DNA of 64,000 bases from the NCBI RefSeq assembly GCF_900176355.1, contig NZ_FWXI01000007.1, positions 124,001 to 188,000 on the forward strand, in the 5' to 3' direction. Origin of the DNA: Sporomusa malonica. GTDB lineage: Bacteria > Bacillota > Negativicutes > Sporomusales > Sporomusaceae. Positions 1,380-30,395 of this stretch are shown here, one piece after another (within the stretch, counting starts at the first letter, position 1; every line of letters begins with the position of its first letter). The notes under the pieces are model-generated. The model was given only the letters and a program-made list of their open reading frames with translations, was not told the DNA's origin and searched no databases. The position numbers were made by a program, and so were the translations under genes.

Positions 1380-2069
1380 ATGCGACCGGATAAGATTTTG
1401 AAAAGGTTAAAAAAATCGGTTGAGGAAATGGAAGTATCCCTGGCAGAAAGGGCAGCTAAAGCTGCGATTGCAGCAGGGACTGATCCTGTTATTGCCATTA
1501 ATGAAGGACTGGCAAAAGGGATGAAGACAGTCAGCGATTTGTTTGATGAGGGAGAAGCGTTTATCCCGCACCTGCTAGTTGCAGCAGAGGCTTTTGAGAC
1601 AGGGGCAGCTATACTGACAGATTCGATGTCGCAAGAGGGAAAGGCTCGGACTTTGCAAGGTAAGGTATTGATTTTTACTGTACAGGGTGATATTCATGAT
1701 ATTGGTAAAAACATTGTAAAGACAATGCTGCTTGCCAATGGATTCCAAGTAATAGATCTTGGTAGAGATGTAACTACTGCTGAAGCCGTCGAAAAAGCCA
1801 AAGAATATGCTGTTGATATTATAGTGGCTGCAGCGCTGATGCGAACGACTATGCCTGCACAGCGTGAAATTCTTCAAGCCTTAGAGGAAGAGGGGATACG
1901 CGGTCAATTTAAATGCATGTTTGGGGGTTCGCCGGTATCGGCTGAGTGGGTGAAAAAAATCGGTGGGGATGCTTATGCTGAATCGGCTTCTGAAGCTGTT
2001 GAAAAAGCCAAAGAGTTAATGGGGGAAATACGGTCACTCCAATGTCTGGCTAAAACCCATACAGCATGA
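1380..2069 (+). CDS. Orphan methylamine-type corrinoid protein
   Basis: A 229-residue MtmC/MttC-family protein that carries a methyl group on cobalamin. It has an N-terminal helical cap domain (residues ~1-85) and a B12-binding Rossmann domain with the GDIHDIGKNIV signature (DxHxxG) near residue 105. It closely resembles the MtmC at 3111 but has a 10-15-residue C-terminal extension, and no methyltransferase gene follows it; an IS630 remnant does. The ATG at 1380 has only a weak GGGGG box. A stronger GGAGGA site instead serves an overlapping 13-codon frame starting at 1360. It may be a second acceptor for MtmB or the leftover of a lost operon. Confidence 0.85.
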   Translation: MRPDKILKRLKKSVEEMEVSLAERAAKAAIAAGTDPVIAINEGLAKGMKTVSDLFDEGEAFIPHLLVAAEAFETGAAILTDSMSQEGKARTLQGKVLIFTVQGDIHDIGKNIVKTMLLANGFQVIDLGRDVTTAEAVEKAKEYAVDIIVAAALMRTTMPAQREILQALEEEGIRGQFKCMFGGSPVSAEWVKKIGGDAYAESASEAVEKAKELMGEIRSLQCLAKTHTA

Positions 2070-2181
2070 TCTTGACAAATTTTCAGAAAGCTGATATTAT
2101 ACGCCTGCATAGAAATGCTGTTAAGCCAAAGCACTTGAGGTGTGCGGCTTATCGGGGGCAGCCCAAGGAAAGGTTGAGTTT

Positions 2182-2682
2182 ATGCCTAGGGTAGCGGTCA
2201 AAATTGAATTGACTGATGAAGAAAGAACAGAATTAGAAAAAAATATCAAAGGGCATAAAGTTGAAAAGCGGCTCTATATCAGGTCGAAGATCATTCTTTT
2301 GGCGGCAGAGGGTAAAGAATGTATTGAAATTGCCAAGATATTAGATGTTTCTGAAAAAACCTGCCGTAAGTGGCGAAACCGGTTTGCCGACAAAAGGCTT
2401 GAGGGAATACTTGACTTGGAAAGAAGTGGTGCTCCTGACACTTTTACCGAGGCAGAGCGTCTGGAAATTATCAGACTTGCGTGCAGTCCGCCTGAGGTGC
2501 CCAAAAATTGGACGCTGGCTTATTTAACTGAACTTGCTAAAGAAAGAATAGGCCGGTCGATTTCAATTGAAACCGTACGTCAAATTTTGAAATCGGCAGA
2601 CAAGAGGACAAGTGTTACTCCTCCCAGTGAACATAGCATGTATATAAAATTGCCCTCAGAATCAACTGAGAAATCTCAGTGA
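2182..2682 (+). CDS. IS630-type helix-turn-helix protein lacking the DDE domain
   Basis: A 166-residue protein matching the N-terminal half of IS630/Tc1-type transposases: two helix-turn-helix units (residues ~30-75 and ~90-135, including IAKILDVSEKTCRKWRNRF). It ends where the DDE/RNase H-like nuclease should begin. Full family members are about twice as long. ATG 2182 is chosen because a purine-rich box precedes it; an earlier in-frame start exists at 2140. It sits between two corrinoid-protein genes and ends at a strong bidirectional terminator. It is either a decayed transposase or a DNA-binding half kept as a regulator. Confidence 0.65.
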   Translation: MPRVAVKIELTDEERTELEKNIKGHKVEKRLYIRSKIILLAAEGKECIEIAKILDVSEKTCRKWRNRFADKRLEGILDLERSGAPDTFTEAERLEIIRLACSPPEVPKNWTLAYLTELAKERIGRSISIETVRQILKSADKRTSVTPPSEHSMYIKLPSESTEKSQ

Positions 2683-3110: not shown

Positions 3111-3770
3111 ATGAGTCAGGTGGAGATTTTAGGAAAACTTAAAACTGCAATTGAAGAAATGGACAGTGATCTTGCTGAAGCAGCAGCTAAAGAGGCGATA
3201 GCGGCCGGAGTTGATCCGCTAGTTGCCATCAATGATGGACTTGCGGCAGGAATGCAAACAATGAGTGACCTTTTTGATGAAGGGGAAGCCTTTGTTCCTC
3301 AACTTGTTGTTGCCGCCGAGGCCTTTGATGCGGCGGTAGCTATACTGAAAGAGGCTATTCCTGAAGACCAAAAGGGCAAAACCTGCAAGGGAAAGGTTCT
3401 TCTATATACCGTCCATGGCGATATCCATGACATTGGTAAAAACATTGTTAAAACAATGCTGTCAGCCAGCGGTTTTGAGGTGTTTGACTTAGGCCGGGAT
3501 GTGCCGACAGACGAAGTCGTAGCCAAAGCCAAAGAATACAATGTTGATATTATTGCCGGTGCTGCCCTCATGACAACAACAATGCCTGGTCAGCGGGATG
3601 TTGTTGCCATCTTGAAAGAAGAAGGTATCCGCGATAAATTCAAATGTATGTTTGGCGGTGCGCCGGTGTCTGCTGAATGGGTAACGAAAATCGGCGGCGA
3701 TGCCTATGCCGAGACCGCGTCTGAAGCAGTCAATAAAGCAAAAGCCTTAGTGGCAGAATTACGGGGGTGA
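3111..3770 (+). CDS. mtmC: Monomethylamine corrinoid protein
   Basis: A 219-residue cobalamin protein that takes the methyl group from MtmB. It has a helical N-terminal domain (~1-85) and a B12-binding Rossmann domain with GDIHDIGKNIV near residue 104; the His is the lower cobalt ligand. The length is typical of MtmC/MtbC/MttC. Specificity for monomethylamine is assigned because mtmB begins 4 nt after its stop. A strong GGAGGGG box precedes ATG 3111. It heads the operon that continues into tRNA-Pyl and the pyl genes. Confidence 0.92.
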   Translation: MSQVEILGKLKTAIEEMDSDLAEAAAKEAIAAGVDPLVAINDGLAAGMQTMSDLFDEGEAFVPQLVVAAEAFDAAVAILKEAIPEDQKGKTCKGKVLLYTVHGDIHDIGKNIVKTMLSASGFEVFDLGRDVPTDEVVAKAKEYNVDIIAGAALMTTTMPGQRDVVAILKEEGIRDKFKCMFGGAPVSAEWVTKIGGDAYAETASEAVNKAKALVAELRG

Positions 3771-3774
3771 TGTA

Positions 3775-5166
3775 ATGGCGATTCCTAAAGTGCTAACAGT
3801 ATTCGATATTTATGAAAGAGCAAAAACCGGTCCCAAGGTGGAAGAGAAAGAATGGGATTTTAAGATTATTCCACAGACTGCAGCCAAGCTGAAGAAAAAA
3901 TACGACATTAAAATGGACAAAAAGCAGATTGTTCCTACCGACAAAACATTGATGAACAATCTGTTCCAAGCCGGCTTGGAAATGCTGGTAGAATGCGGTA
4001 TATACTGCATTGATACCAACCGGGTCATTAAGTATCGCAAAGACGAAGTGATGGCAGCCATAACTTCGGCACCGACACGCGCAATTTACGGCGAGGGTAA
4101 ACAGGCAGTAGTACTGGCGCCTCGCAGCTATACTGAAAAGAGACCACCCATTATCCAGGGAGGCCCGACAGGCGCGCCTTGTTCAGAGGACCAGTTCTTG
4201 GCCATCCATCAGTCATACGCCCAGGAGCCGTTAGTGGATACCATTGTTGACGGAGTGCTCCAAACAATCAAGGGCTATGACCCAATCCCTGGCAGCCCAT
4301 GGGAAATCGCCGCAGTAAAATCAGAAGCTATTTTAGTACGGGCGGCGCAAGACAGAGCCGGACGTACCGGTATGGGGCTCTAGGGGAATGAAACTTCACT
4401 TTCGCCAGCAGGAGTAATCGCAGCCGATTTCCCTGGTGGTATGAGGCCTTCTGACAGCCATGAAGTATCCCAGCTAAATGAGCTGAAGATCGATGTAGGT
4501 GCATTGGTATTCACTGCTCATTATCAACTAGCTGGCAACCTCATCATGTGCGAGCAGATGCCTATCTATGGAGGTTACGCAGGTGGTTTGGAAGAAACAA
4601 CCATCGTTGACGTGGCAACCACGATTAATGCCTTTGTCATGACAGGGGCAACCTGGCACTTGGACGGCCCGGTTCATGTACGTTGGGGTATCACTACAGC
4701 CAGAGAGGCTCTTGCTGTAGCTGGACACTGCGCCATGGCAATTGAGGCCAATACCAATTTGATGCTAGGCAATCAATACTATACTTTGGCAGGTCCTTGT
4801 ACTGTTATGTGCCTCTTGGAAACAGCAGCCCAAGCCATTACTGATACGGCCAGCGGCCGGGAGGTATTGTCCGGGGTAGCTGCCAGCAAAGGCGTAGCCA
4901 CTAATTTCACTACAGGTATGGAAGCAAGAATGATGGCCGAAGCGGCCCGGGCAGTAGCAGGTATGGAGACCGAGAAGGTAAACGAGATACTGGATAAGCT
5001 TGTAGCCTTATATGAAAAAGATTACAAGACTGCCCCGAAAGGTAAGTCGTTCGAAGAGTGTTATGATGTAGTAAAACTTGTGCCTACCCAGGAATACCTG
5101 GATGTGTACGATGAAGCCGTTAAGATACTTACTGGTCTAGGTCTGGATTACTGGACAGAAAAATAA
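3775..5166 (+). CDS. mtmB: Monomethylamine methyltransferase with in-frame UAG (pyrrolysine)
   Basis: Two open frames, 3775-4380 and 4384-5166, lie in the same frame and are separated only by TAG at 4381-4383. Reading it as pyrrolysine (residue 203) gives 463 residues, matching the ~458-residue MtmB with Pyl at 202. The sequence before and after the codon aligns to MtmB landmarks: QGGPTG, AGRTGMGL-Pyl-GNETSLS, DSHEVSQLNELKID, YGGYAGGLEETTIVDVAT and GNQYYTLAGPC. The enzyme transfers the methyl group of methylamine to the Co(I) corrinoid of MtmC, and Pyl binds the amine. Start ATG 3775 follows mtmC closely with a GGGGGTG box. A hairpin can form directly at the UAG (4382-4434). It is not MttB or MtbB: length and Pyl position differ. 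Confidence 0.95.
4382..4434 (+). promoter_or_regulatory. Possible stem-loop immediately at the mtmB UAG codon
   Basis: Bases 4382-4389 can pair with 4427-4434 (8 bp, one G-U). The stem begins inside the UAG itself and encloses a small GAAA/TTTC hairpin. Archaeal mtmB has a proposed stem-loop (PYLIS) at this place. Whether this one affects read-through is unknown. Confidence 0.35.
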
Positions 5167-5242: not shown

Positions 5243-5314
5243 GGAGGGTGGATCGTAGAGATCGCATGGACTCTAAATTCATGCAGCCGGGTGCGACTCC
5301 CGGACTCTCCGCCA
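5243..5314 (+). tRNA. pylT: tRNA-Pyl (anticodon CUA)
   Basis: The 72-nt gene folds with a 7-bp acceptor stem (5243-5249 with 5304-5310), one nucleotide before a 4-bp D stem (GATC/GATC) and a 5-nt D loop. It has an extended anticodon stem, loop 5271-5277 with anticodon CTA at 5273-5275, a very short variable region, a 5-bp T stem and an encoded CCA. Short D loop, long anticodon stem and minimal variable loop are hallmarks of tRNA-Pyl. It decodes UAG. It lies inside the operon between mtmB and the activator gene. Confidence 0.96.
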
Positions 5315-5331
5315 TTATGGAGATAAATGCT

Positions 5332-7269
5332 ATGCAATATACTGTGATTTTTCAGCCGTCAGGCTGCCAGGCAATGGTTGACAGCGGAAAAAATCTGCTT
5401 GCAGCTTCACGGGAAGTAGGTGCTGATATTGAAGCTCCTTGCGGAGGTAGTGAGATTTGCGGTAAATGCAAGGTTAAAATTGAGGAGAGCTGCCTTGCGG
5501 GGATTGGTATTCATTCCAAAATGGTGCATTTGTCGCCAGTGACTGACAAAGAGAGAAAAATGCTGAGCCCTGAGGAGTTGGCTGATCATTACAGATTGGC
5601 GTGTTGCGCCCAGATATATGGAGATGTCTTGGTAGTTGTTCCAGAACAAAGCCAGGCATTAAAGCAGGTTGTGTTAGAAGCGGGAACGGCAAGGGAATTT
5701 CGTATAAATCCGGCCGTACGCAAGTATTATGTGGAACTGAATAAGCCTACTTTGGCTGATTGCCGCGATGATTTTGCCCGCTTAAAAGAGGTTTTGCAAA
5801 GTCGGTTTATTCAGCTTGACAAGACTATGCAGATAGACTACAAGGTGCTCGCAAAGCTGCCAGATATCTTACGGCAAGGTGGTTGGAAGGTTACGGCTAC
5901 ATTGTGGAATGACAGCGAGATTATTGCTGTTGAGCCAGGCCGGGCAGAGAAAGCCTATGGTATTGCTATCGATATTGGCACAACGACAATTGCTGCTTAC
6001 TTGTGTGATCTTACAGTGGGTCAGGTGTTAGCTCAGGACTCGTTGATGAACAGTCAAGTGCGCTATGGGGATGATGTGCTGGCGCGCATCACTTACTGCA
6101 TGGCCAATGACGACGGCCTTGCTAAACTGCATCAAACGATAATTAATGATATAAATGACCTGATTCAGAAAATGACTACAACCGCCAATGTAAATCCTGA
6201 AACTGTTATGGAAGTAGTACTTGTATTTAATACAGTTATGCACCATATTACTCTTGGTATAAATCCTCAATATATTGGCAGTGCTCCGTTTGCTTCAGTT
6301 ATTAGAGAAGCTGTAAACATCAAGGCCAGAGAGCTTGGGATAAACATTGCTGAAAGCGGGTATGTCCATTGCCTGCCGCTCGAAGCCGGTTTTGTCGGTG
6401 CTGACAATGTTGCAGTACTTATTGCCGAGCAGCCGTATAAGCAGGACAAGATGAAGCTTGTTGTCGATATAGGCACAAACGGTGAAATTAATTTTGGCAA
6501 TAAAGAGGGCATCTTCTCAACCTCGTGTGCAACTGGTCCGGCGCTAGAGGGGGCACAAATTAAATTTGGCATGCGGGCGGCGCCAGGAGCTATTGCTCAG
6601 ATAACCATAAATCCTGAAACCCAGGAACCTGAATTTGAAGTCATTGGCGCAGATGCCAGGGCGGCACTACGCGCCAGAGGAATATGCGGCTCGGGAATTA
6701 TTGATGCTGTTGCTGAATTATTTAAGGCAGGTATCATTAAACGAGATGGCGGGTTTGACAAGAATATCCGATCACCGCGCGTCCGGAAAGGGACAGACGG
6801 TAAGTTTGAATATGTTTTGGCCTGGGCAGCCGAGACCGCCCTTGGGCAGGACATCACGATAACCCAGAAGGATGTGCGTGCTGTTCAGCTGGCTAAGGCA
6901 GCACTTTATGCTGGAGCCAAGATTCTTATGCGGAAAAAAGGTGTAGATAAAGTAGACGCAGTGACATTGGCAGGCGCGTTTGGCAGTTATATTAACAAGG
7001 TAAATGCGTTGGTTATTGGGATGGTGCCTGATTGTAATCCTGAGGCTGTCATTGCAGTAGGGAACGCCGCTGGAGAAGGTGCGAAATTGGCGCTGTTTGA
7101 CCTTGATAAAAGAGGTGAAGCGCAAGCTGTTGCCAGTGTTGTGCACTTTGTGGAAACGGCTACCGAGGCTGATTTCCAGAAGGAGTTTATGGATGCCATG
7201 TTCCTACCCCATGCCAGCGACCGTTTCCCCCATATTGATCCTATACTTGAGCGAATTCCCCGGAGATAG
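5332..7269 (+). CDS. RamA-like corrinoid activation ATPase (2Fe-2S / ASKHA, DUF4445)
   Basis: About 645 residues. An N-terminal plant-type 2Fe-2S ferredoxin domain has the cysteine set CGGSEICGKC (residues ~30-39) plus a downstream Cys. It is followed by a linker and an ASKHA-fold ATPase with GIAIDIGTTTIAAYL near 210 and VVDIGTNGEI near 380. The family reduces inactive Co(II) corrinoid proteins to Co(I) at the cost of ATP, so it should reactivate MtmC. ATG 5332 is chosen because GGAG precedes it by 9 nt; the longest open frame begins inside tRNA-Pyl and is not credible. It ends in TAG; read-through would add 14 residues. Confidence 0.9.
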   Translation: MQYTVIFQPSGCQAMVDSGKNLLAASREVGADIEAPCGGSEICGKCKVKIEESCLAGIGIHSKMVHLSPVTDKERKMLSPEELADHYRLACCAQIYGDVLVVVPEQSQALKQVVLEAGTAREFRINPAVRKYYVELNKPTLADCRDDFARLKEVLQSRFIQLDKTMQIDYKVLAKLPDILRQGGWKVTATLWNDSEIIAVEPGRAEKAYGIAIDIGTTTIAAYLCDLTVGQVLAQDSLMNSQVRYGDDVLARITYCMANDDGLAKLHQTIINDINDLIQKMTTTANVNPETVMEVVLVFNTVMHHITLGINPQYIGSAPFASVIREAVNIKARELGINIAESGYVHCLPLEAGFVGADNVAVLIAEQPYKQDKMKLVVDIGTNGEINFGNKEGIFSTSCATGPALEGAQIKFGMRAAPGAIAQITINPETQEPEFEVIGADARAALRARGICGSGIIDAVAELFKAGIIKRDGGFDKNIRSPRVRKGTDGKFEYVLAWAAETALGQDITITQKDVRAVQLAKAALYAGAKILMRKKGVDKVDAVTLAGAFGSYINKVNALVIGMVPDCNPEAVIAVGNAAGEGAKLALFDLDKRGEAQAVASVVHFVETATEADFQKEFMDAMFLPHASDRFPHIDPILERIPRR

Positions 7270-7307: not shown

Positions 7308-8183
7308 ATGAGCAAACCGATTAACTTTCAATGTAAATGGGATAGTGCTGAAGTAATGCCGGTAGCTATGCTTGAAGCTGTCGGTATCAGTTTTTATCAA
7401 GCCCATACCGAGCGGCATGCTATGGCGTTTGTTGCCGAAGAAAAGAAGAGACTTGAAGGTGACTCAATCTGCAGAATCCCTTTTTGTGTAATGGTAGAAG
7501 CCCAGGCATTTGGCGCTAACGTCGTAATTCCGGACAATGAGTCTGGCCCAACTTTACGAGACTATAGATTTACTAGTATGGAACAGCTAGCCGAGCTGGA
7601 CGAGATAGACTTAACTAGCGGCAGAATTAATGAGGTTTTGCACTGTGCTCAGATACTGAAAAATAAGGGCAATGTAGTAGCTGTTAATGTGGAGGGCCCG
7701 TTTACGATTTTAGGGTTGCTTATTGACTCGGTGGAGCTATTTAAGGGGATTTACCTGCACCGGCAGTTGCTTGAAAAAGCACTGGAAACCATAGAAAACA
7801 GTATTGTGAAATACATGTTAACTGCTGCAGAAAAGGGGGCGCAGATCATCTCGTATGCCGATCCTACCGGCGCGCGCGAGCTGGTGGGGCCTGAGTTGTT
7901 CAGAGAGATAAGCGGCCAGAGTACCTACAATATACTTAAAAAGGTAGAAGCGCGGCTAGACGGGGCCGTTGTCCACCTGTGCGGCATAACGTCGCTGAGT
8001 CTGGAGAAATCAGGATTTTGCCAAGCCAAATCTGTCGCGGTTCCTGACGCTCGGACATATGGAGAAAGTATATGTCAGGTGTTAGCACAGGATAAGACGA
8101 TCAAATTGCTGGGGCATAACTGTATGAAAAGTACACCGGCTGTCCTGAAAAATCCGGTCGTATGGCAGATTGAACTGAACTGA
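7308..8183 (+). CDS. MtbA-like methylcorrinoid methyltransferase (UroD family)
   Basis: A 291-residue member of the uroporphyrinogen decarboxylase / MtaA-MtbA fold. It keeps the zinc ligands of methylcobamide:thiol methyltransferases: HLCG near residue 222 and a Cys in GHNCMKSTP near 275. It should move the methyl group from MtmC to an acceptor. In methanogens this is coenzyme M; in an acetogen tetrahydrofolate is more likely, which is inference. It is somewhat shorter than MtbA (~340 residues). ATG 7308 follows a GGAGGAG box. It lies between the activator and pylSc genes. Confidence 0.82.
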   Translation: MSKPINFQCKWDSAEVMPVAMLEAVGISFYQAHTERHAMAFVAEEKKRLEGDSICRIPFCVMVEAQAFGANVVIPDNESGPTLRDYRFTSMEQLAELDEIDLTSGRINEVLHCAQILKNKGNVVAVNVEGPFTILGLLIDSVELFKGIYLHRQLLEKALETIENSIVKYMLTAAEKGAQIISYADPTGARELVGPELFREISGQSTYNILKKVEARLDGAVVHLCGITSLSLEKSGFCQAKSVAVPDARTYGESICQVLAQDKTIKLLGHNCMKSTPAVLKNPVVWQIELN

Positions 8184-8210: not shown

Positions 8211-9047
8211 ATGTCGCTGACTTGGACTGATATCCAGCGAAAAAGGCTGACCGAACTAAATGCAACTGAAATGCAAAAGGAAAGATTCTTTTCAGTCGAA
8301 AAGGATCGAGATGAAGCTTTTAAAAAACAGGAATTGTCTTTGGTTAGTGCAGGTAAACAGAGGCTGAATCAACTGCGTACTGAAAAAAAACGTCCCTCGT
8401 TAAGTGTGCTTGAGACAAATTTAGTTGCTGCGCTGACTGACAGCGGGTTTGTGCAAGTGACCACTCCGATCATTCTTGCTAAAAGCCTGCTGGCGAAAAT
8501 GACGATTGATGATGAACATGCCCTTTTTTCACAGGTGTTTTGGCTTGATAGTAAAAAGTGTCTAAGACCCATGCTGGCCCCCAATTTGTATTATATTCTA
8601 AAAGATCTATTGCGGTTATGGGAAAAGCCTGTACGCATTTTTGAAATAGGCTCCTGCTTTCGTAAAGAATCACAAGGAAATAATCATCTAAATGAGTTTA
8701 CCATGTTGAATCTGGTGGAATGGGGCCTGCCGGAAGAGAGCCGGCATGAACGGCTGGCTGAGCTTGCCGAAGTAGTCATGCAGGCAGCAGGCGTTCCCAG
8801 CTACCGGCTGGAGCAAACTTCTTCAGTTGTCTACGGGGATACAATTGATGTTATGTATGAGGATATAGAGCTGGGCTCAGGCGCTATGGGGCCGCATTTT
8901 CTTGATGGCAAATGGGGGATGTCCGGCCCGTGGGTAGGTATTGGTTTTGGGTTAGAACGGCTGGTCATGGTCAAAGAGGGCGGGCAAAATGTGCGCAGTA
9001 CGGGAAAGAGTCTGTCTTACTTGGATGGGGTGCGGTTAAATATCTGA
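8211..9047 (+). CDS. pylSc: Pyrrolysyl-tRNA synthetase, catalytic (C-terminal) subunit
   Basis: A 278-residue class II synthetase core that charges tRNA-Pyl with pyrrolysine. Motif 2 appears as RIFEIGSCFRKE near residue 145 and motif 3 as GIGFGLERLVMV near 250. LRPMLAPNLYY is the family's substrate-pocket helix. The N-terminal tRNA-binding part found in archaeal PylS is absent and is encoded separately by pylSn at 12220, the split arrangement known from Desulfitobacterium. ATG 8211 has a GGAGGT box; an upstream in-frame start at 8187 lacks one. Confidence 0.95.
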   Translation: MSLTWTDIQRKRLTELNATEMQKERFFSVEKDRDEAFKKQELSLVSAGKQRLNQLRTEKKRPSLSVLETNLVAALTDSGFVQVTTPIILAKSLLAKMTIDDEHALFSQVFWLDSKKCLRPMLAPNLYYILKDLLRLWEKPVRIFEIGSCFRKESQGNNHLNEFTMLNLVEWGLPEESRHERLAELAEVVMQAAGVPSYRLEQTSSVVYGDTIDVMYEDIELGSGAMGPHFLDGKWGMSGPWVGIGFGLERLVMVKEGGQNVRSTGKSLSYLDGVRLNI

Positions 9048-9085: not shown

Positions 9086-10174
9086 ATGAAAAATCTCGAT
9101 AAAATCTTAGAAAAATTACTACATAATGTCCCAGTAACCTCTCAGGATATCTCGTATTTATTGCAGCTTACCCATCCTGAAGCCAGGGAGCGGCTTTTTC
9201 GGGCAGCCAGATTGCTGCGGAAAAGATATTTTAACGACAAAATATTTCTTTATGGATTTGTCTACTTTTCCACCTATTGCCGCAATAACTGCACTTTCTG
9301 TTATTATCGTACCTCGAATAGCGCTTGTATCAGATACCGTAAAACTACTCAGGAGATTGTTGATATAGCCTCAGCGTTGGCTGAGTCAGGTGTGCATTTA
9401 ATTGATTTGACAATGGGTGAAGATCCGCAGTATCTGTCAAATGATAATGAGGGATATCAAAAGCTGATCGAAGTGGTTAAGTTGGTAAAACAGCAAACCA
9501 ATCTGCCAATAATGATTTCCCCGGGTGTTGTCCCTAAGGAAATCTTACAAGAGTTAAAGCGAGCCGGCGCTGGTTGGTATGCCTGCTACCAGGAGACCCA
9601 TAACCGCCGACTGTATGATACATTGCGACTTAATCAGAGCTATGACGAGAGATGGTCAATCAAAGTATTTGCCAAAACAACAGGCATGCTGGTGGAAGAG
9701 GGGCTGCTTGTTGGTATTGGCGACAGTGTCAAGGATGCTGTGCATTCCTTACAGGAAATGAAAAAGCTCGGTGCTGAGCAGATTCGCACCATGAGCTTTG
9801 TACCGCAAAAGGGAACGCCTTTATATAATGCTGCGACAATTAATAATAGGTACGAACTCAATGTAATTGCCGTTATGCGCTTGTTATTTCCAGATAAATT
9901 AATACCGGCATCACTGGATGTTGAAGGTATTGAAGGGCTGAAAGAACGTTTGGATGCCGGTGCCAATGTGGTTACATCAATCATTCCCCCTGAGGCTGGG
10001 TTGGCCGGGGTTTCCCAAAGTACCCTGGATATTTCCGAAGGATACAGGACAGTCAAGGGAATTACGCCAATTCTAGAGGCCTGCGGACTGACTCCAGCCA
10101 CACTTGAGGAGTATGTAAGCTGGATGGACAACAGGCTGGGCTATGGTGGCAAGGAGGGCGTACTATGCGAATAG
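9086..10174 (+). CDS. pylB: 3-methylornithine synthase (radical SAM)
   Basis: A 362-residue radical SAM enzyme that rearranges lysine to (3R)-3-methyl-D-ornithine, the first step of pyrrolysine synthesis. The cluster motif reads YCRNNCTFCYY (CxxxCxxC) near residue 75. The rest follows the BioB-like TIM barrel, including PPEAGLAGVSQS near the C-terminus. ATG 9086 has GGGGAGG upstream; the longer frame starts inside pylSc and is discarded. The TAG stop (10172-10174) overlaps the start of pylC by 10 nt. Confidence 0.96.
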   Translation: MKNLDKILEKLLHNVPVTSQDISYLLQLTHPEARERLFRAARLLRKRYFNDKIFLYGFVYFSTYCRNNCTFCYYRTSNSACIRYRKTTQEIVDIASALAESGVHLIDLTMGEDPQYLSNDNEGYQKLIEVVKLVKQQTNLPIMISPGVVPKEILQELKRAGAGWYACYQETHNRRLYDTLRLNQSYDERWSIKVFAKTTGMLVEEGLLVGIGDSVKDAVHSLQEMKKLGAEQIRTMSFVPQKGTPLYNAATINNRYELNVIAVMRLLFPDKLIPASLDVEGIEGLKERLDAGANVVTSIIPPEAGLAGVSQSTLDISEGYRTVKGITPILEACGLTPATLEEYVSWMDNRLGYGGKEGVLCE

Positions 10175-11343
10175 CTGTGCTGGGAGGGAAGCTCCAGGGA
10201 GTAGAGGCCTGCTATCTTGCGAAGAAAGCGGGTTGGACAATTGCGCTTGTCGATAAAAACCCGGCAGCACCGGCGGCTAAGCTTTGTGACGATTTCTATG
10301 TGTTTGATCTTATGGACACCGAAAAGCTTACCCACCTCTTGAAAAACGTGGAGCTGGCAGTGCCTGCCTTAGAAGATAAGGCTGTCTTGGATCATATCTA
10401 TCAATGCGCGCAGCTGGCTGGGGTTAAGGTTATGTATGACCAACAGGCCTATCTGCTTTCCTCTTCTAAACTTGAGTCAGATAAATTGTTTGCTGAACTT
10501 GGTGTTCCGGCACCAAGACCCTGGCCTTTGTGCCAGTTTCCGGTTACGGTAAAACCATCAGGTGCAAGCGGCAGCGAGGGTGTCTACCAGGTTAATAATC
10601 GACTGGAACTCGAACTGCTGCAACAGAGATTAGGCGGCTTTGACGATTGGGTGGTGCAGGAATTTTTGGATGGACCATCTTATTCGATTGAAGTTGTTGG
10701 CTGTAATGGTAACTACCGGACTTTTCAAGTTACAGAGCTGGCGATGGATGAAGAATATGACTGTAAACGAGTATTAGCGCCTGCAGTACTGGCACTTGAT
10801 AAAGTGCAGGCGTTTGCCGACATCGCAATTACAATCGCTAAGCAATTACAGCTAAACGGAATTATGGATGTCGAGGTCATTTACCATGATGAACAGCTTA
10901 AAGTGTTGGAGGTAGACGCAAGATTGCCGAGTCAGACGCTAACGGCTGTGTACCAATCTACCGGAATCAACGTATTGGAACTGTTGTGGGCAGGCTTTAG
11001 TGAGACAGATGACCCGAAATGTTTCACAATAACCGCTGCTCAGGGTGTCATTTATGAACACATAAAAGTAACGCAAGATCGTATTGAGGTATGTGGCGAA
11101 CATATTATGGCTAACGCCGGCTGCCTACGCCTCTACAAAGATTTTTTCGGGGCCGACGAGGCAATATCCAACTATGATGAAGCCAAGCAAGAATGGGTAG
11201 CCACCTTGATTGTAACAGGCCAAACCCGCCAGGAGGCCTGGCAGCGGCGCTGTGCTGTGATTAATACGATTATGGACAAATACAATATCAGTGAATGCCG
11301 GGATGGTACACCAACTTTGCTGTCAAAACACTGTGATCACTGA
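10165..11343 (+). CDS. pylC: 3-methylornithine-L-lysine ligase (ATP-grasp)
   Basis: A 392-residue ATP-grasp ligase that joins 3-methylornithine to the epsilon-amine of lysine. It has an N-terminal Rossmann-like segment MRIAVLGGKLQGVEACYLAK, a central ATP-grasp domain with VKPSGASGSEGVY near residue 130 and VLEVDARLPSQT near 250. The start ATG 10165 overlaps pylB, which suggests translational coupling. Its product feeds PylD. Confidence 0.95.
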   Translation: MRIAVLGGKLQGVEACYLAKKAGWTIALVDKNPAAPAAKLCDDFYVFDLMDTEKLTHLLKNVELAVPALEDKAVLDHIYQCAQLAGVKVMYDQQAYLLSSSKLESDKLFAELGVPAPRPWPLCQFPVTVKPSGASGSEGVYQVNNRLELELLQQRLGGFDDWVVQEFLDGPSYSIEVVGCNGNYRTFQVTELAMDEEYDCKRVLAPAVLALDKVQAFADIAITIAKQLQLNGIMDVEVIYHDEQLKVLEVDARLPSQTLTAVYQSTGINVLELLWAGFSETDDPKCFTITAAQGVIYEHIKVTQDRIEVCGEHIMANAGCLRLYKDFFGADEAISNYDEAKQEWVATLIVTGQTRQEAWQRRCAVINTIMDKYNISECRDGTPTLLSKHCDH

Positions 11344-11360
11344 ACAATCTGTTGAAAAGT

Positions 11361-12200
11361 ATGGCGCAGGAGGTGAGGGCTCTGACAAGACTGCGGGAAG
11401 AGGATATTTGTCATGTCGATGAAATGTTAAGTGAATATGACCAGCGCTTATGTAAGCGAGTGGGGCAAGGCTTGGCAGGGATTGCCGCCCACTCCCTGGG
11501 AAGAAGTGCTGAAGAGTTTGCCGGCTTGCGCCAGCATGTTTCCATCGGGGTTATCCCGATTGCTTACGGCCAGGGTATTATTCATGGCTTTTCGCGATCG
11601 GTGCAAAAGATAATTGAGTTTTTGGGCTTCAACGCTTTCGTCACAGATCAGAATAATATAGCTGGTCTGGCAGAGGCTGCAGCTAAAGGCGCAAAAATCA
11701 TTTTTCTTGCCGACGATGATAAGTTTGTCGCTATCAATGTTGCTAGCGGCAAGGTCAGTGACAATGGGGAAGCAACCGGACGGGGGTACGCCGCCGCGCT
11801 GGATTTAATGTCAGGCGGGCTGCAGGGAGAGTCTGTGCTGCTTGTCGGCACCGGCCCGGTAGGTACTGGGGCAGCGCTGTTTATGGCGGCGAGGGGTGCA
11901 CAAGTTTTTGCCTATGATGTCAGTGCTGACAGGGTAAGGCAATTGCAGCAATTAATACCGGGAGTTGAAGCCGTGCGGCACATAGGCGACGCCTTGTCTG
12001 TATGCAAACTAGTGGTTGAGGCAACTCCGGCTGCAAATACCATTAATAAAAAATACATTACCCCAGCTACCATGATTGCAGCGCCGGGAATACCATTAGG
12101 GCTTGACCAGCACTGCTGCCTGCTGCTTGGTGACAGGTGGATCCATGATGTTTTGGAAATCGGGGTAGCAACTATGTTGTTTACGGTGTTGGCAGATTGA
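11361..12200 (+). CDS. pylD: Pyrrolysine synthase (dehydrogenase)
   Basis: About 279 residues. It oxidises the lysine-methylornithine dipeptide to pyrrolysine with NAD+. Visible parts are an N-terminal domain with SIGVIPIAYGQGIIHGFS near residue 55 and a Rossmann domain with VLLVGTGPVGTGAALFMAARG near 155, then EATPAANTI near 215. The start is uncertain. ATG 11361 and TTG 11352 have weak boxes. A strong AGGAGGTGAGG lies just inside and would suit a CTG at 11382, giving MTRLREEDI, where related PylD proteins begin. Confidence 0.94.
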   Translation: MAQEVRALTRLREEDICHVDEMLSEYDQRLCKRVGQGLAGIAAHSLGRSAEEFAGLRQHVSIGVIPIAYGQGIIHGFSRSVQKIIEFLGFNAFVTDQNNIAGLAEAAAKGAKIIFLADDDKFVAINVASGKVSDNGEATGRGYAAALDLMSGGLQGESVLLVGTGPVGTGAALFMAARGAQVFAYDVSADRVRQLQQLIPGVEAVRHIGDALSVCKLVVEATPAANTINKKYITPATMIAAPGIPLGLDQHCCLLLGDRWIHDVLEIGVATMLFTVLAD

Positions 12201-12219: not shown

Positions 12220-12582
12220 ATGGCGGCAAAAAGTAGTGTTGTTCTTGTCAAAGAGCCTTCGGTGGAAGCAGTCAATAAAAAGAAAAAATACTACAGGAAG
12301 AATGTTGATTTTTTCAAGCTTGTAGAAAAAATCAAGCTGTGGCCGTCACGATCCGGTATCTTACATGGTATTAAGTCAATTAAAATTACCGGTGAAATTG
12401 CAGAAATTATCACCCATTGTGATGAAAAATTTGTTGTCTGGAATTCGCGTAACAGCAGGGCTGCCAGATGGCTTCGCAATAAATGGTGTGTCTGTGGCTG
12501 TAAAGCCTGTAAGATACCCCAATGGAAACTAGAAAAATATACCAGCACCATGATGACGCAAAAATGGGGTTCTAGTTTGTAG
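12220..12582 (+). CDS. pylSn: Pyrrolysyl-tRNA synthetase N-terminal tRNA-binding protein
   Basis: A 120-residue basic protein equal to the N-terminal domain of archaeal PylS. It binds tRNA-Pyl tightly and assists PylSc. A Lys-rich start leads into KIKLWPSRSGILHGIKSI (residues ~32-49), and a Cys cluster WCVCGCKAC near residue 90 probably binds zinc. ATG 12220 has an AAGGAGGGG box. The gene ends at TAG 12580, and the next methyltransferase gene continues in the same frame with no other stop between. Confidence 0.94.
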   Translation: MAAKSSVVLVKEPSVEAVNKKKKYYRKNVDFFKLVEKIKLWPSRSGILHGIKSIKITGEIAEIITHCDEKFVVWNSRNSRAARWLRNKWCVCGCKACKIPQWKLEKYTSTMMTQKWGSSL

Positions 12583-12612
12583 AAGTTATTAAATTTTATG
12601 GGGGATGAGAAG

Positions 12613-13965
12613 ATGAATGGTAAAGAGAGAGTGCTAAAAACGTTAAGTTTTGAACCGGTAGACAGAACGCCGTGGGTACCTTATGCCGGTGTTCAGACTG
12701 CCAATCTAATTGGTGTTGACGCTGAGACCTACCTAAAAGATGCCGACATGATTGTAAAGGGCATAGTAAAAGCCTATGAGCTGTATCAGCCAGATGGTCT
12801 GCCGATTGTGTTTGACGTGCAAATGGAGGCCGAGGCTTTGGGTTGTAAACTCAAATGGGCCAAAGATAACCCGCCTGCCGTAGATACCCACATTTTGGAA
12901 CAGGTAGAACTCTCTGAACTAAAACTGCCTACTGAGAAAGATGGCCGGTATCCTATAGCACTGGAAGCCGCGCGCAGGCTGGTAGCTGAACTTGGTGACA
13001 AGATTGCTTTATATGCATTGATCTGCGGGCCGTTTACCCTGGCGCTGCACTTAAAAGGTACAGATCTTTTCTCCGATATGATCAAAAGACATGAAAAAGT
13101 CGATGTTCTGCTTGAGTTTTGTACTACCGTATGTAAAGACTTGGCCAGAATGTATGCTGCAACCGGTGTGGACATTATTGCCGTTGTTGACCCGATGACT
13201 TCACAGATTGCACCCAAACAGTTTGACCGTTTTGTCAAACCTGTCACGATTGAGTTAAACCGGTATGTAAAATCCTTAGGCCTTAAAGTCACCAGTTTCT
13301 GCTGCGGCAACGCGACCAAAAATATTGAGCTTATGTGCCAGACAGAAACCGATGGTATCGCCTTTGACGAACAAGTCGGCCTTACTTATGCTAAAGAAAT
13401 TGCCGCAAAGTATAAGGTGTCCTATGGCGGCAATTTGCCGTTAACCACAGTAATGATGTTTGGCTCACCGCTGGAAAACGTAGAAGAAGCACGCAAAGAG
13501 ATTGAACTTGGGCAGGGAGTAGGCTATATCTTATCGCCTGGGTGTGATATACCATTTGATACCCCAATCAACAACCTTGTTGCTATCTCCAATTTTATTA
13601 ATGGCAAGCCAGCTTCCTTAGAAATGCTGGAATCTGATCAGCAATTCCGTGAAGAGGAAGAAGTAGTCCTGGAGGATGTTGAAATAAAACCAGGTCAGGT
13701 ATTTATTGAGATCGTCACCTTGGATTCAGAGGGCTGTCCACCTTGCCAGTATATGTGTGAATCAGTCAAGAAGGTGCTGCCGCGTTATGAGGGCAAACTA
13801 ATCTGGCGTGAGTCGCTAGTCAAGACCCGGGCTGGTATAAATAGAATGGCCAAACTAGGGGTGCAAAACCTGCCAGCTATGCTTATCAACAACGACGTTG
13901 TGTTTGACAACATTGTTCCGTCTGACGATGAATTGATTGAGGCCATTGAAAAGCGAATAGGCTAG
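12613..13965 (+). CDS. UroD/MtaA-family methyltransferase fused to a thioredoxin domain
   Basis: A 450-residue fusion. Residues ~1-335 are a UroD/MtaA-type TIM barrel. The usual His-x-Cys zinc motif reads FCCG near residue 230, so the His is replaced by Phe with an extra Cys beside it; GCDIP near 310 supplies the last Cys. Residues ~365-450 form a thioredoxin/glutaredoxin-like domain with CPPC near 376 and a cis-Pro region GVQNLPAMLI. It probably accepts or delivers methyl groups, or maintains thiol redox for the corrinoid system (inference). ATG 12613 has a GGGGGA box. The gene is in frame with pylSn through one UAG. Confidence 0.75.
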   Translation: MNGKERVLKTLSFEPVDRTPWVPYAGVQTANLIGVDAETYLKDADMIVKGIVKAYELYQPDGLPIVFDVQMEAEALGCKLKWAKDNPPAVDTHILEQVELSELKLPTEKDGRYPIALEAARRLVAELGDKIALYALICGPFTLALHLKGTDLFSDMIKRHEKVDVLLEFCTTVCKDLARMYAATGVDIIAVVDPMTSQIAPKQFDRFVKPVTIELNRYVKSLGLKVTSFCCGNATKNIELMCQTETDGIAFDEQVGLTYAKEIAAKYKVSYGGNLPLTTVMMFGSPLENVEEARKEIELGQGVGYILSPGCDIPFDTPINNLVAISNFINGKPASLEMLESDQQFREEEEVVLEDVEIKPGQVFIEIVTLDSEGCPPCQYMCESVKKVLPRYEGKLIWRESLVKTRAGINRMAKLGVQNLPAMLINNDVVFDNIVPSDDELIEAIEKRIG

Positions 13966-28628: not shown

Positions 28629-30395
28629 ATGCATAAACATGAATTGGCGAGTTTGGCAGACGTATTCTCGTCGACTGGCATGACAGAAATGAGAGTTGTG
28701 CTTGACTCAGTTTGCAATGGGGTAGTTGTAGTAAATGCCCACGGTATTATTACCTTTTTTAATACTGCCGCCGAGACTATCAGTGGTTTAAAAGCCAAAA
28801 ATGTCATAGGACAAATAGTGGATGACGTAATACCCAATACTGGACTCATACGGGTTATGGAAACTGGGCTGGCTGAGATTAATCAGCGCCAAAATATAGG
28901 AAAATGCGAAATATTAACAAACCGTACGCCCATTCTAAAAGATAATATCCTTGTCGGAGCGGTTGCCATCTTCCAGGATATTACCGAATTTAATGAGGTT
29001 GTTACTCAGCTTGAAGAAAACAAAAGGCTCAAAAGTACATTGGAATCTATTGTTGACAGTCTGCATGAGGGGATTGTAGTTGTCGATAAAGCCGGTTGTA
29101 TTACCCTGCTGAACAAAGCATATGGCGAATTCCTCAATGTTGTTCCCAAGGCAGTTATCGGAAAACATGTTGCTGAGGTTATACCCAATACAAGGATGCA
29201 TCTGGTAGCCCAGGAAGGTAAGGCTGAAGTAACAGATATACAAAAAATCCAGACAAATACCTGTGTTGTCACCAGGATTCCTATTGTCAAAGATGGCGAA
29301 ATCATTGGCGCTGTCGGTAACATGGTGTTTAAAGATGTTAAGGATTTAAAGTCGCTTGCCGGGAAAATTAACAAACTGGAATCAGAACTGGAATATTATA
29401 AGGAAGAATTGCTCAAAGCCAACGGCGGTAAATATACGTTTGATAGTATTGTTGGCAACAGTGACACTATGAAGTGGCTGAGGGATGTCGCTGCCAAAGC
29501 AGCAAGAGGTACCTCGACAGTACTGATATTAGGTGAAAGCGGTACAGGTAAAGAATTGTTTGCTCATGCTGTGCATAACGGCAGCCGCCGGTGGCAGGGG
29601 CCTTTTATCAAGGTTAATTGTGCGGCTCTGCCTGAACAGCTTTTGGAAGCCGAGCTATTCGGTTATGAAGAAGGCGCATTTACCGGAGCCCGTAAGGGCG
29701 GAAAACCGGGTAAATTCGAACTTGCCAACGGTGGGACAATTTTTCTGGATGAAATTGGCGAAATGACACTTGCTATGCAAGTCAAGCTGCTCAGGGTGCT
29801 GCAGGAACGGGAGCTGGAGCGTCTGGGTGGAACTAAGACTACCAAGTTGGATATTCGTGTGATTGCAGCAACAAACCGCGATTTAGAAAAAATGATTGAG
29901 CAGAACCAATTCAGGCAGGATTTATATTATCGGCTAAATATATTTACGCTCAATATTCCCCCTCTCAGAGAGCGAACCGAGGACATACCTGTGCTGTGTC
30001 AGATGTTGCTAAAAAAGATAAATAATCAGGTTGAGCATTGGGTTGAAAGTGTATCGCCAGAAGCTGTGGCGTTACTCATGCAGTACAAATGGCCTGGTAA
30101 TGTCCGGGAACTCGAGAATGTACTTGAACGTACTATTAATTTAATGGAAGATGAGATCAGCATTGCCCCTGAGCATTTGCCGCCGATGATAAAAAAAGGT
30201 AATCGACTTAAGGTGGACAACCAGGATGGGGAGAATCCGAATGATTTAGCCGAGATTAAAGATGATGCTGAAAAACAAGCCATTATGCGGGCTCTGGCTG
30301 CGGCAGGTGGTAATAAGAGTAAAGCGGCCAGATTATTGGGTATTCATCGCTCTGGTTTTTATCAGAAGATGCAGAAGTATAATTTGATAAAATAG
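28629..30395 (+). CDS. Sigma-54-dependent transcriptional activator (PAS-PAS-AAA-Fis)
   Basis: A 588-residue enhancer-binding protein. PAS domains lie at ~20-120 and ~135-240, a coiled coil at ~245-265, the AAA+ domain at ~275-510 and a Fis-type helix-turn-helix at the end. Visible motifs are Walker A GESGTGKE, the sigma-54 contact loop GAFTGA, Walker B FLDEIGEM, and [21 protein letters not shown]. It should open the three sigma-54 promoters nearby in response to a small-molecule or redox cue sensed by PAS. A GGAGGGG box precedes ATG 28629. Linkage to those targets is inference from proximity. Confidence 0.93.

Follow-up and report, generated by a model that had tools for sequence, protein, structure and literature searches.

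The window analysed here (64,000 nucleotides of Sporomusa malonica, positions 124,001 to 188,000 of the forward strand of contig NZ_FWXI01000007.1, assembly GCF_900176355.1) carries a monomethylamine methyltransferase gene, mtmB, which we read as a single gene whose internal UAG at codon 203 is translated as pyrrolysine (Pyl) by the decoding genes adjoining it, in an operon that is one of two pyl sets in the genome, each presumably switched by its substrate. We put the probability of this reading at about 0.9. The features of the operon are collected in Table 1.

Table 1. Features of the mtmB-type pyl operon (positions counted from the first base of the window)
Feature	Position	Strand	Evidence
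mtmC-like corrinoid protein (upstream paralogue)	1380..2069	+	TIGR02370, 224.6 bits (over cut-off); counterpart upstream of mtmC in S. acidovorans (L115)
Small HTH protein, candidate regulator	2140..2682	+	HTH domains only, without transposase catalytic domain
mtmC, monomethylamine corrinoid protein	3111..3770	+	TIGR02370, 240.9 bits (over cut-off); named by position before mtmB
mtmB, monomethylamine methyltransferase read through UAG	3775..5166	+	PF05369, 755-758 bits, 450/450 positions; 1tv2, 578 bits
UAG codon 203, pyrrolysine site	4381..4383	+	Opposite M. barkeri MtmB1 residue 202 in alignment; TAG in 26/27 loci
PYLIS_1 match (RF01982), candidate RNA element	4381..4480	+	81.5 bits (gathering 70)
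pylT, tRNA-Pyl, anticodon CUA, discriminator G	5243..5314	+	ARAGORN
Corrinoid-activating iron-sulfur protein (RamA/AcsV-like)	5323..7269	+	NF040756, 476 bits; TIGR04270, 109 bits (both below cut-offs)
URO-D-type methyltransferase (MtbA/MtaA-like, short)	7308..8183	+	PF01208, 93 bits; PRK06252, 133 bits (below cut-off)
pylSc, catalytic part of pyrrolysyl-tRNA synthetase	8211..9047	+	TIGR02367, 389.7 bits (over cut-off)
pylB, methylornithine synthase	9086..10174	+	TIGR03910, 535.7 bits (over cut-off)
pylC	10165..11343	+	TIGR03909, 485.7 bits (over cut-off)
pylD	11352..12200	+	TIGR03911, 294.9 bits (over cut-off)
pylSn, tRNA-binding part of synthetase	12220..12582	+	TIGR03912, 137.8 bits (over cut-off)
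URO-D methyltransferase with C-terminal thioredoxin-like domain	12598..13965	+	PF01208, 206 bits; PF13192, 26 bits

The mtmB frame spans 463 codons, with the TAG as its one internal stop, and its full read-through translation matches the Pfam MtmB family from position 1 to position 450. A preliminary description of this DNA had seen two same-frame halves around a single TAG, had equated residue 203 with Pyl202 of Methanosarcina, and had placed the genes for Pyl synthesis and insertion behind mtmB, all of which holds: in the alignment of the joined translation to M. barkeri MtmB1, the TAG stands opposite residue 202 (printed as X in 1l2q and 1nth and as K in 1tv2), ARAGORN finds pylT, and five pyl proteins, each where it had been placed, score over curated cut-offs. 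Residue 202 of the M. barkeri enzyme is named Pyl202 in the accessible part of one report (PMC9842639). Given the position of the codon, the gene family, the use of TAG but never TAA or TGA, the purifying selection downstream, a tRNA-Pyl(CUA), a split PylRS, and three biosynthesis genes, UAG-203 is very probably decoded as pyrrolysine, the identity of the residue being deduced from sequence, and Pyl is clearly the best-supported reading of the codon.

Among 398 genomes sampled from the phylum, 28 contain a match to the MtmB family. All 12 places scoring above 540 bits (in nine genomes, that of the window included) hold exactly one TAG each, and the remaining listed places, which score at most 347 bits and some of which are fragments, hold no internal stop. 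The TAG lies in the motif GM(G/A)LOGNETS at 26 of the 27 mtmB loci of named genomes; the 27th (L072) crosses an N stretch, and this copy carries the TAG when read as L019. Record titles of the TAG-mtmB loci name several families, and a chance origin of the codon is excluded. For the selection comparison we used 23 relatives, leaving out four loci (L072, L073, L077, and L079) as broken or partial. In all 23 comparisons, pN/pS is lower downstream of the TAG than upstream, and dN/dS downstream is 0.017 to 0.051 in the 15 with estimable dS, a rough figure since most dS values exceed 1. Behind a genuine stop, the sequence would not be expected to be more strongly conserved than the half in front of it.

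Were UAG-203 nevertheless a true stop, mtmB would be broken or would yield a 202-residue product, and the second half would start separately, from an ATG at 4441. That internal ATG exists, the genome encodes RF1 (545 bits), and TAG is a common terminator, ending 18 of 51 window genes (genes and starts picked by hand), four of them in the pyl operon itself (ramA, pylB, pylSn, and the last URO-D gene). Against this stand the retention of the TAG at the same codon in loci from several families, the uniformly lower pN/pS behind it, and the complete pyl genes attached, and we consider termination highly improbable. We think just as little of near-cognate suppression, in which an ordinary amino acid rather than Pyl would be inserted: a tRNA(CUA) gene begins 77 bases past the end of mtmB and is followed by synthetase and biosynthesis genes, and the UAG occupies the position of Pyl in a solved enzyme, although nothing in the sequence excludes some readthrough of this type. 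The presence of RF1 and the 18 TAG-ended genes do indicate that UAG is neither globally reassigned nor avoided as a stop. We infer that its decoding as pyrrolysine is confined by the timing of pyl expression and by competition with RF1.

Decoding of UAG-203 would fall to the tRNA-Pyl and the split PylRS encoded directly behind mtmB, with PylBCD making pyrrolysine from lysine. MtmB, we assume, transfers methyl from monomethylamine to MtmC, the corrinoid protein, whose corrinoid is presumably kept reduced by the activating protein, and the URO-D-type methyltransferases presumably pass the methyl group on; the acceptor is probably tetrahydrofolate. Each pyl set is presumed to be switched on with its own substrate, such that UAG would become a sense codon only as required.

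We also considered whether the RNA downstream of the codon acts as a PYLIS recoding element, a role that it may have but on which our case for decoding does not draw: the Rfam match is real, but the changes in paired positions do not support the structure predicted by RNAalifold, and the accompanying dip in synonymous variation is broad. In that structure (22 bacterial sequences), a double change occurs in only 1 of 16 pairs, several pairs are broken in 4 or 5 of the 22 sequences, and the covariation term is unfavourable (+0.43). The 34 codons that follow the TAG vary mildly less than average at synonymous sites: 0.61, where the mean is 0.75, with all pairs (rank 21 of 432 windows), and 0.38, where it is 0.62, among six close sequences (rank 32 of 432). 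The dip is not centred on PYLIS, with the lowest windows starting 17 to 26 codons past the TAG in all pairs and 4 to 22 codons before it in close relatives.

Separately, the second mtmB copy of S. silvacetica (L057, the same copy as L020) has an extra in-frame TAG at codon 260. In this one sequence, the codon aligns with residue 259 of M. barkeri MtmB, which we take to be an active-site Glu, and the sister copy in S. silvacetica has Glu there. Within the window, the TAG of pylSn is in frame with the following gene; read-through was dropped because in S. acidovorans the gap between the same two genes, computed from coordinates, is not a multiple of three.

Two gene starts in the operon probably or possibly differ from those of the open reading frame caller. 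pylT overlaps the long start called for the gene after it, which more probably begins at 5323, and the HTH gene may in reality start at 2182. The HTH protein, which we believe resembles the DNA-binding parts of IS630-type transposases, is 81 to 82% identical in the four relatives compared (pN/pS, 0.14 to 0.17), and its gene is conserved and constrained beside mtmB-type pyl operons. For this reason, we rejected its interpretation as an insertion-sequence remnant; it is perhaps a domesticated regulator.

The genome of the window (G000) contains a second pyl set. MttB-family matches occur at 10 places, of which only one (L008) has a TAG inside the gene; the stops at L002 (TAG) and at L007 and L011 (TAA) lie upstream of the likely start codon and were dismissed. 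The Pyl-mttB (G000:C27:410963-412372; L082:7964-9373, minus strand) has its internal TAG at codon 312 of P0002, which aligns with residue 334, the Pyl of M. barkeri MttB. The accessible text on that enzyme names Pyl334 and describes Gly110 and Tyr364 as conserved (PMC9842639); both are kept in the G000 protein, and Thr111 is replaced by Glu (alignment read by eye). Adjoining this gene on contig C27 are pylB2, pylC2, pylD2, and pylSn2; pylT2 and pylSc2 (L109:1011-1962) lie right behind eutC on C65, a contig of 10,922 bases with a second copy of the C27 eut genes, 93 to 99% identical to the first. When C65 is placed on C27, its ends abut within eutB, as those of a circle or tandem copy would, with no exact overlap of at least 15. 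The second set presumably serves trimethylamine, via the Pyl-mttB; the genome has no match to MtbB (PF09505) at an E value of 0.001. PylSc1 and PylSc2 are 62.1% identical, and the two tRNAs are 82% identical and share G73. No deletion separates the two PylSc in the stretch FEIG.C.RKESQG..HLNEFTM, which we take to hold motif 2.

In a tree of 37 PylSc, PylSc1 groups with seven other Sporomusaceae sequences (support, 100/99), and PylSc2 shares a clade with copy b of S. acidovorans and with sequences from two genomes of a different family (100/99). A tree joining both G000 sequences as sisters is rejected (AU test, P = 1.6e-7), as is one uniting all 14 Sporomusaceae PylSc (P = 0.0013), so the second set of this genome was gained or kept separately rather than duplicated in place. 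The PylSc of Sporomusa sp. KB1 fall into two lineages and those of S. acidovorans into three. The two PylSc of S. sphaeroides are sisters (88.8% identical), and as such its second set looks like a duplicate; its mtmB-linked PylSc sits in a third lineage, otherwise seen mttB-linked. In 12 tRNAs compared, tRNA type (A or G as the third acceptor base) tracks PylSc lineage, and all 12 have G73. As a side note, the S. acidovorans genome has three pyl sets (L113, L114, and L115), whose PylSc are those of the three lineages.

The number of PylSc copies (0, 1, or 2 to 3) matches the UAG methyltransferases present in 12 of 12 family genomes, a pattern that was noticed before being stated, in genomes that are related and thus do not amount to 12 independent tests. 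Three (G001, 72% complete, G008, and G010) have no PylSc over the cut-off, no MtmB match, and no TAG-mttB; five (G002, G004, G005, G007, 58% complete, and G011) have one PylSc and TAG-mtmB, with no TAG-mttB; and four (G000, G003, G006, and G009) have both TAG-mtmB and TAG-mttB, with 2, 3, 2, and 2 PylSc, respectively. The mttB search was made against P0002 at an E value of 1e-60, a threshold at which more distant Pyl-MttB could be missed. With at most 6 or 7 candidates scored per genome, PylSc occurs in 21 of 380 genomes of the class, with more than one copy only in the same four, and in 23 of the 398 phylum genomes, where G282 (84% complete) is the only genome besides G000 to have two, which are nearly alike.

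The sets also differ in the sequences ahead of pylT. We searched for TGGCAY-N5-TTGCW, which we take to be the sigma-54 motif. A perfect element lies 28, 33, 35, and 48 nt before pylT in four mttB-type sets in which pylT stands beside methyltransferase genes (S. acidovorans b and c, KB1 b, and S. sphaeroides b), and none lies in the 250 nt upstream of a fifth, pylT2 of G000. With up to one mismatch allowed, no element occurs within 250 nt (for one gene, 241 nt) upstream of 15 mtmB-linked pylT genes, one of them behind an mtmB fragment, or, for the four sets examined, within roughly 600 nt upstream of mtmC. L113 of S. acidovorans has four perfect sites against 0.06 expected, and in G000 perfect sites precede pylB2 and mttB (L082, 4208 and 9539). 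A gene for a PAS/sigma-54 activator lies near the second set (L109, 3724-5166), with a homologous frame in S. acidovorans. The pyl operon of the window has no sigma-54 site and contains sigma-70-like consensus sites only (26, versus 23.4 in shuffles).

Elsewhere in the window, three perfect sigma-54-type sites (24639, 27373, and 27586; 0.35 expected) surround an apparent acyl-CoA degradation and transport cluster, near a gene resembling a PAS/sigma-54 activator (28629-30395; names by reading).

Could the two sets be simply redundant, expressed together, each synthetase charging both tRNAs, with no assignment to substrates? Synthetases at least 55% identical were active on each other's tRNA in roughly 90% of cases (PMC11467909, in the part available), and the published clustering threshold for tRNA-Pyl is 75% (PMC7615293, likewise in part); with PylSc and tRNA identities above these orthogonality thresholds, each synthetase may accept the tRNA of the other set, and from their sequences the two would be expected to cross-charge. 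The marks of orthogonality described for HMET1, namely, discriminator bases that differ between the tRNAs and a motif-2 loop shortened as in its PylRS2, are absent from the two pairs of G000. On the other side, copy number tracks the substrate genes throughout the family genomes, and perfect sigma-54 elements occur solely before mttB-type pylT. Separate regulation does not need orthogonality, and since cross-charging is compatible with separate switching, these counterpoints bear on joint expression only. We regard redundancy as a serious contender, if the less favoured one. Contamination or a strain mixture in the assembly, as a source of the second set, is unlikely. The assembly has an estimated contamination of 6.11%, and pylSc2 and pylT2 sit on the small C65 with its duplicated eut genes; yet five of eight other genomes of the genus score 7 to 10% (the rest score 1, 2, and 5%), and the C65-type gene order is kept over about 8 kb in S. 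acidovorans, which also has pylBCDSn, mttB, pylT, and pylSc on one contig. At 75 to 77% DNA identity over that stretch, C65 is not carry-over from S. acidovorans. Moreover, in S. sphaeroides 12 kb separate the two sets on a single chromosome, which is reported to be closed at 4,956,256 bp in the available text of PMC11385720.

From these observations, we infer that UAG decoding comes as a kit with each methylamine operon, one kit per operon and each switched separately. Extended to Sporomusa at large, namely, a private and separately switched kit for each methylamine, in which the mtmB operon and every mttB locus have a tRNA-Pyl, a PylRS, and Pyl biosynthesis genes to themselves, with lineages mixed in three of the four multi-set genomes and the pylT of the trimethylamine kit under sigma-54 control in relatives, this proposal stands, in our estimation, at even odds.

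The Pyl-mtmB arrangement itself is not new and is already known for Sporomusa. In sources available to us in part, S. ovata DSM 2662 was described in 2013 as having a pylTScBCDSn cluster preceded by Pyl methylamine methyltransferases (PMC3772150), manual annotation of Pyl genes in both S. ovata and S. sphaeroides had appeared by 2024 in a paper that calls the genus exclusively acetogenic (PMC11385720), Pyl-mtmB is listed for Acetohalobium and Desulfotomaculum acetoxidans (PMC3941956), and 23 Pyl methyltransferases were counted in strain DCMF (PMC6778437); the pyl genes of S. silvacetica were reported in 2017 (PMC5609420). The preliminary description had called a bacterial MtmB with Pyl in a likely acetogen uncommon, which is true of the phylum (TAG-mtmB in 9 of 398 genomes) but not of the family (9 of 12), and the cluster was already in print for S. 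ovata. That strain shares with the window an MtmB of 94% identity with the same TAG, an identical pylT, and the same upstream HTH gene, but a single PylSc is present in its genome (G004), where no TAG-mttB is detected at an E value of 1e-60; the genome of the window has two PylSc and one TAG-mttB. With M. barkeri mtmB1 and its Pyl202 (1l2q, 1nth, and 1tv2-4), the window has in common the full-length MtmB match and the position of Pyl; here, by contrast, the synthetase is split into PylSc and PylSn, the host is a bacterium, and the methyl acceptor is presumably not coenzyme M.

What is newer is the coexistence of the mtmB operon with a further pyl set in a single bacterium, the sets here having separate origins and each being linked to its own methylamine methyltransferase. 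Two PylRS per organism are described for two archaea, called the only known such organisms in the accessible part of PMC9071458, and HMET1 resembles G000 further in having two tRNA-Pyl. The archaeal PylRS lack the N-terminal part, whereas here PylRS is split into PylSc and PylSn; the tRNAs of HMET1 differ in their discriminator base, whereas both of those in G000 have G73; and here the PylSc come from two lineages, with sigma-54 elements marking one kind of set in relatives. Acetohalobium arabaticum, in which Pyl decoding depends on growth conditions, likewise has bacterial pyl genes, and by analogy regulation of the Sporomusa pyl genes by methylamines is presumed; one pylTSBCD set is described there (PMC11467909, as far as its available text goes), versus two to three sets in four Sporomusa. 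Among the matches listed in our literature search, which mostly covered papers outside subscription, there is no report of several pyl sets in one bacterium or of sigma-54 in connection with pyrrolysine.

The presence of several PylRS/tRNA-Pyl pairs for one codon makes it testable whether they are used interchangeably or switched substrate by substrate, and would supply natural bacterial pairs of approximately 60% identity for genetic-code engineering. The sigma-54 element before pylT would offer a promoter handle on conditional decoding in a cell in which UAG also ends 18 of the 51 genes examined here. If each methylamine operon does bring its private kit, the meaning of UAG in these bacteria would be set substrate by substrate.
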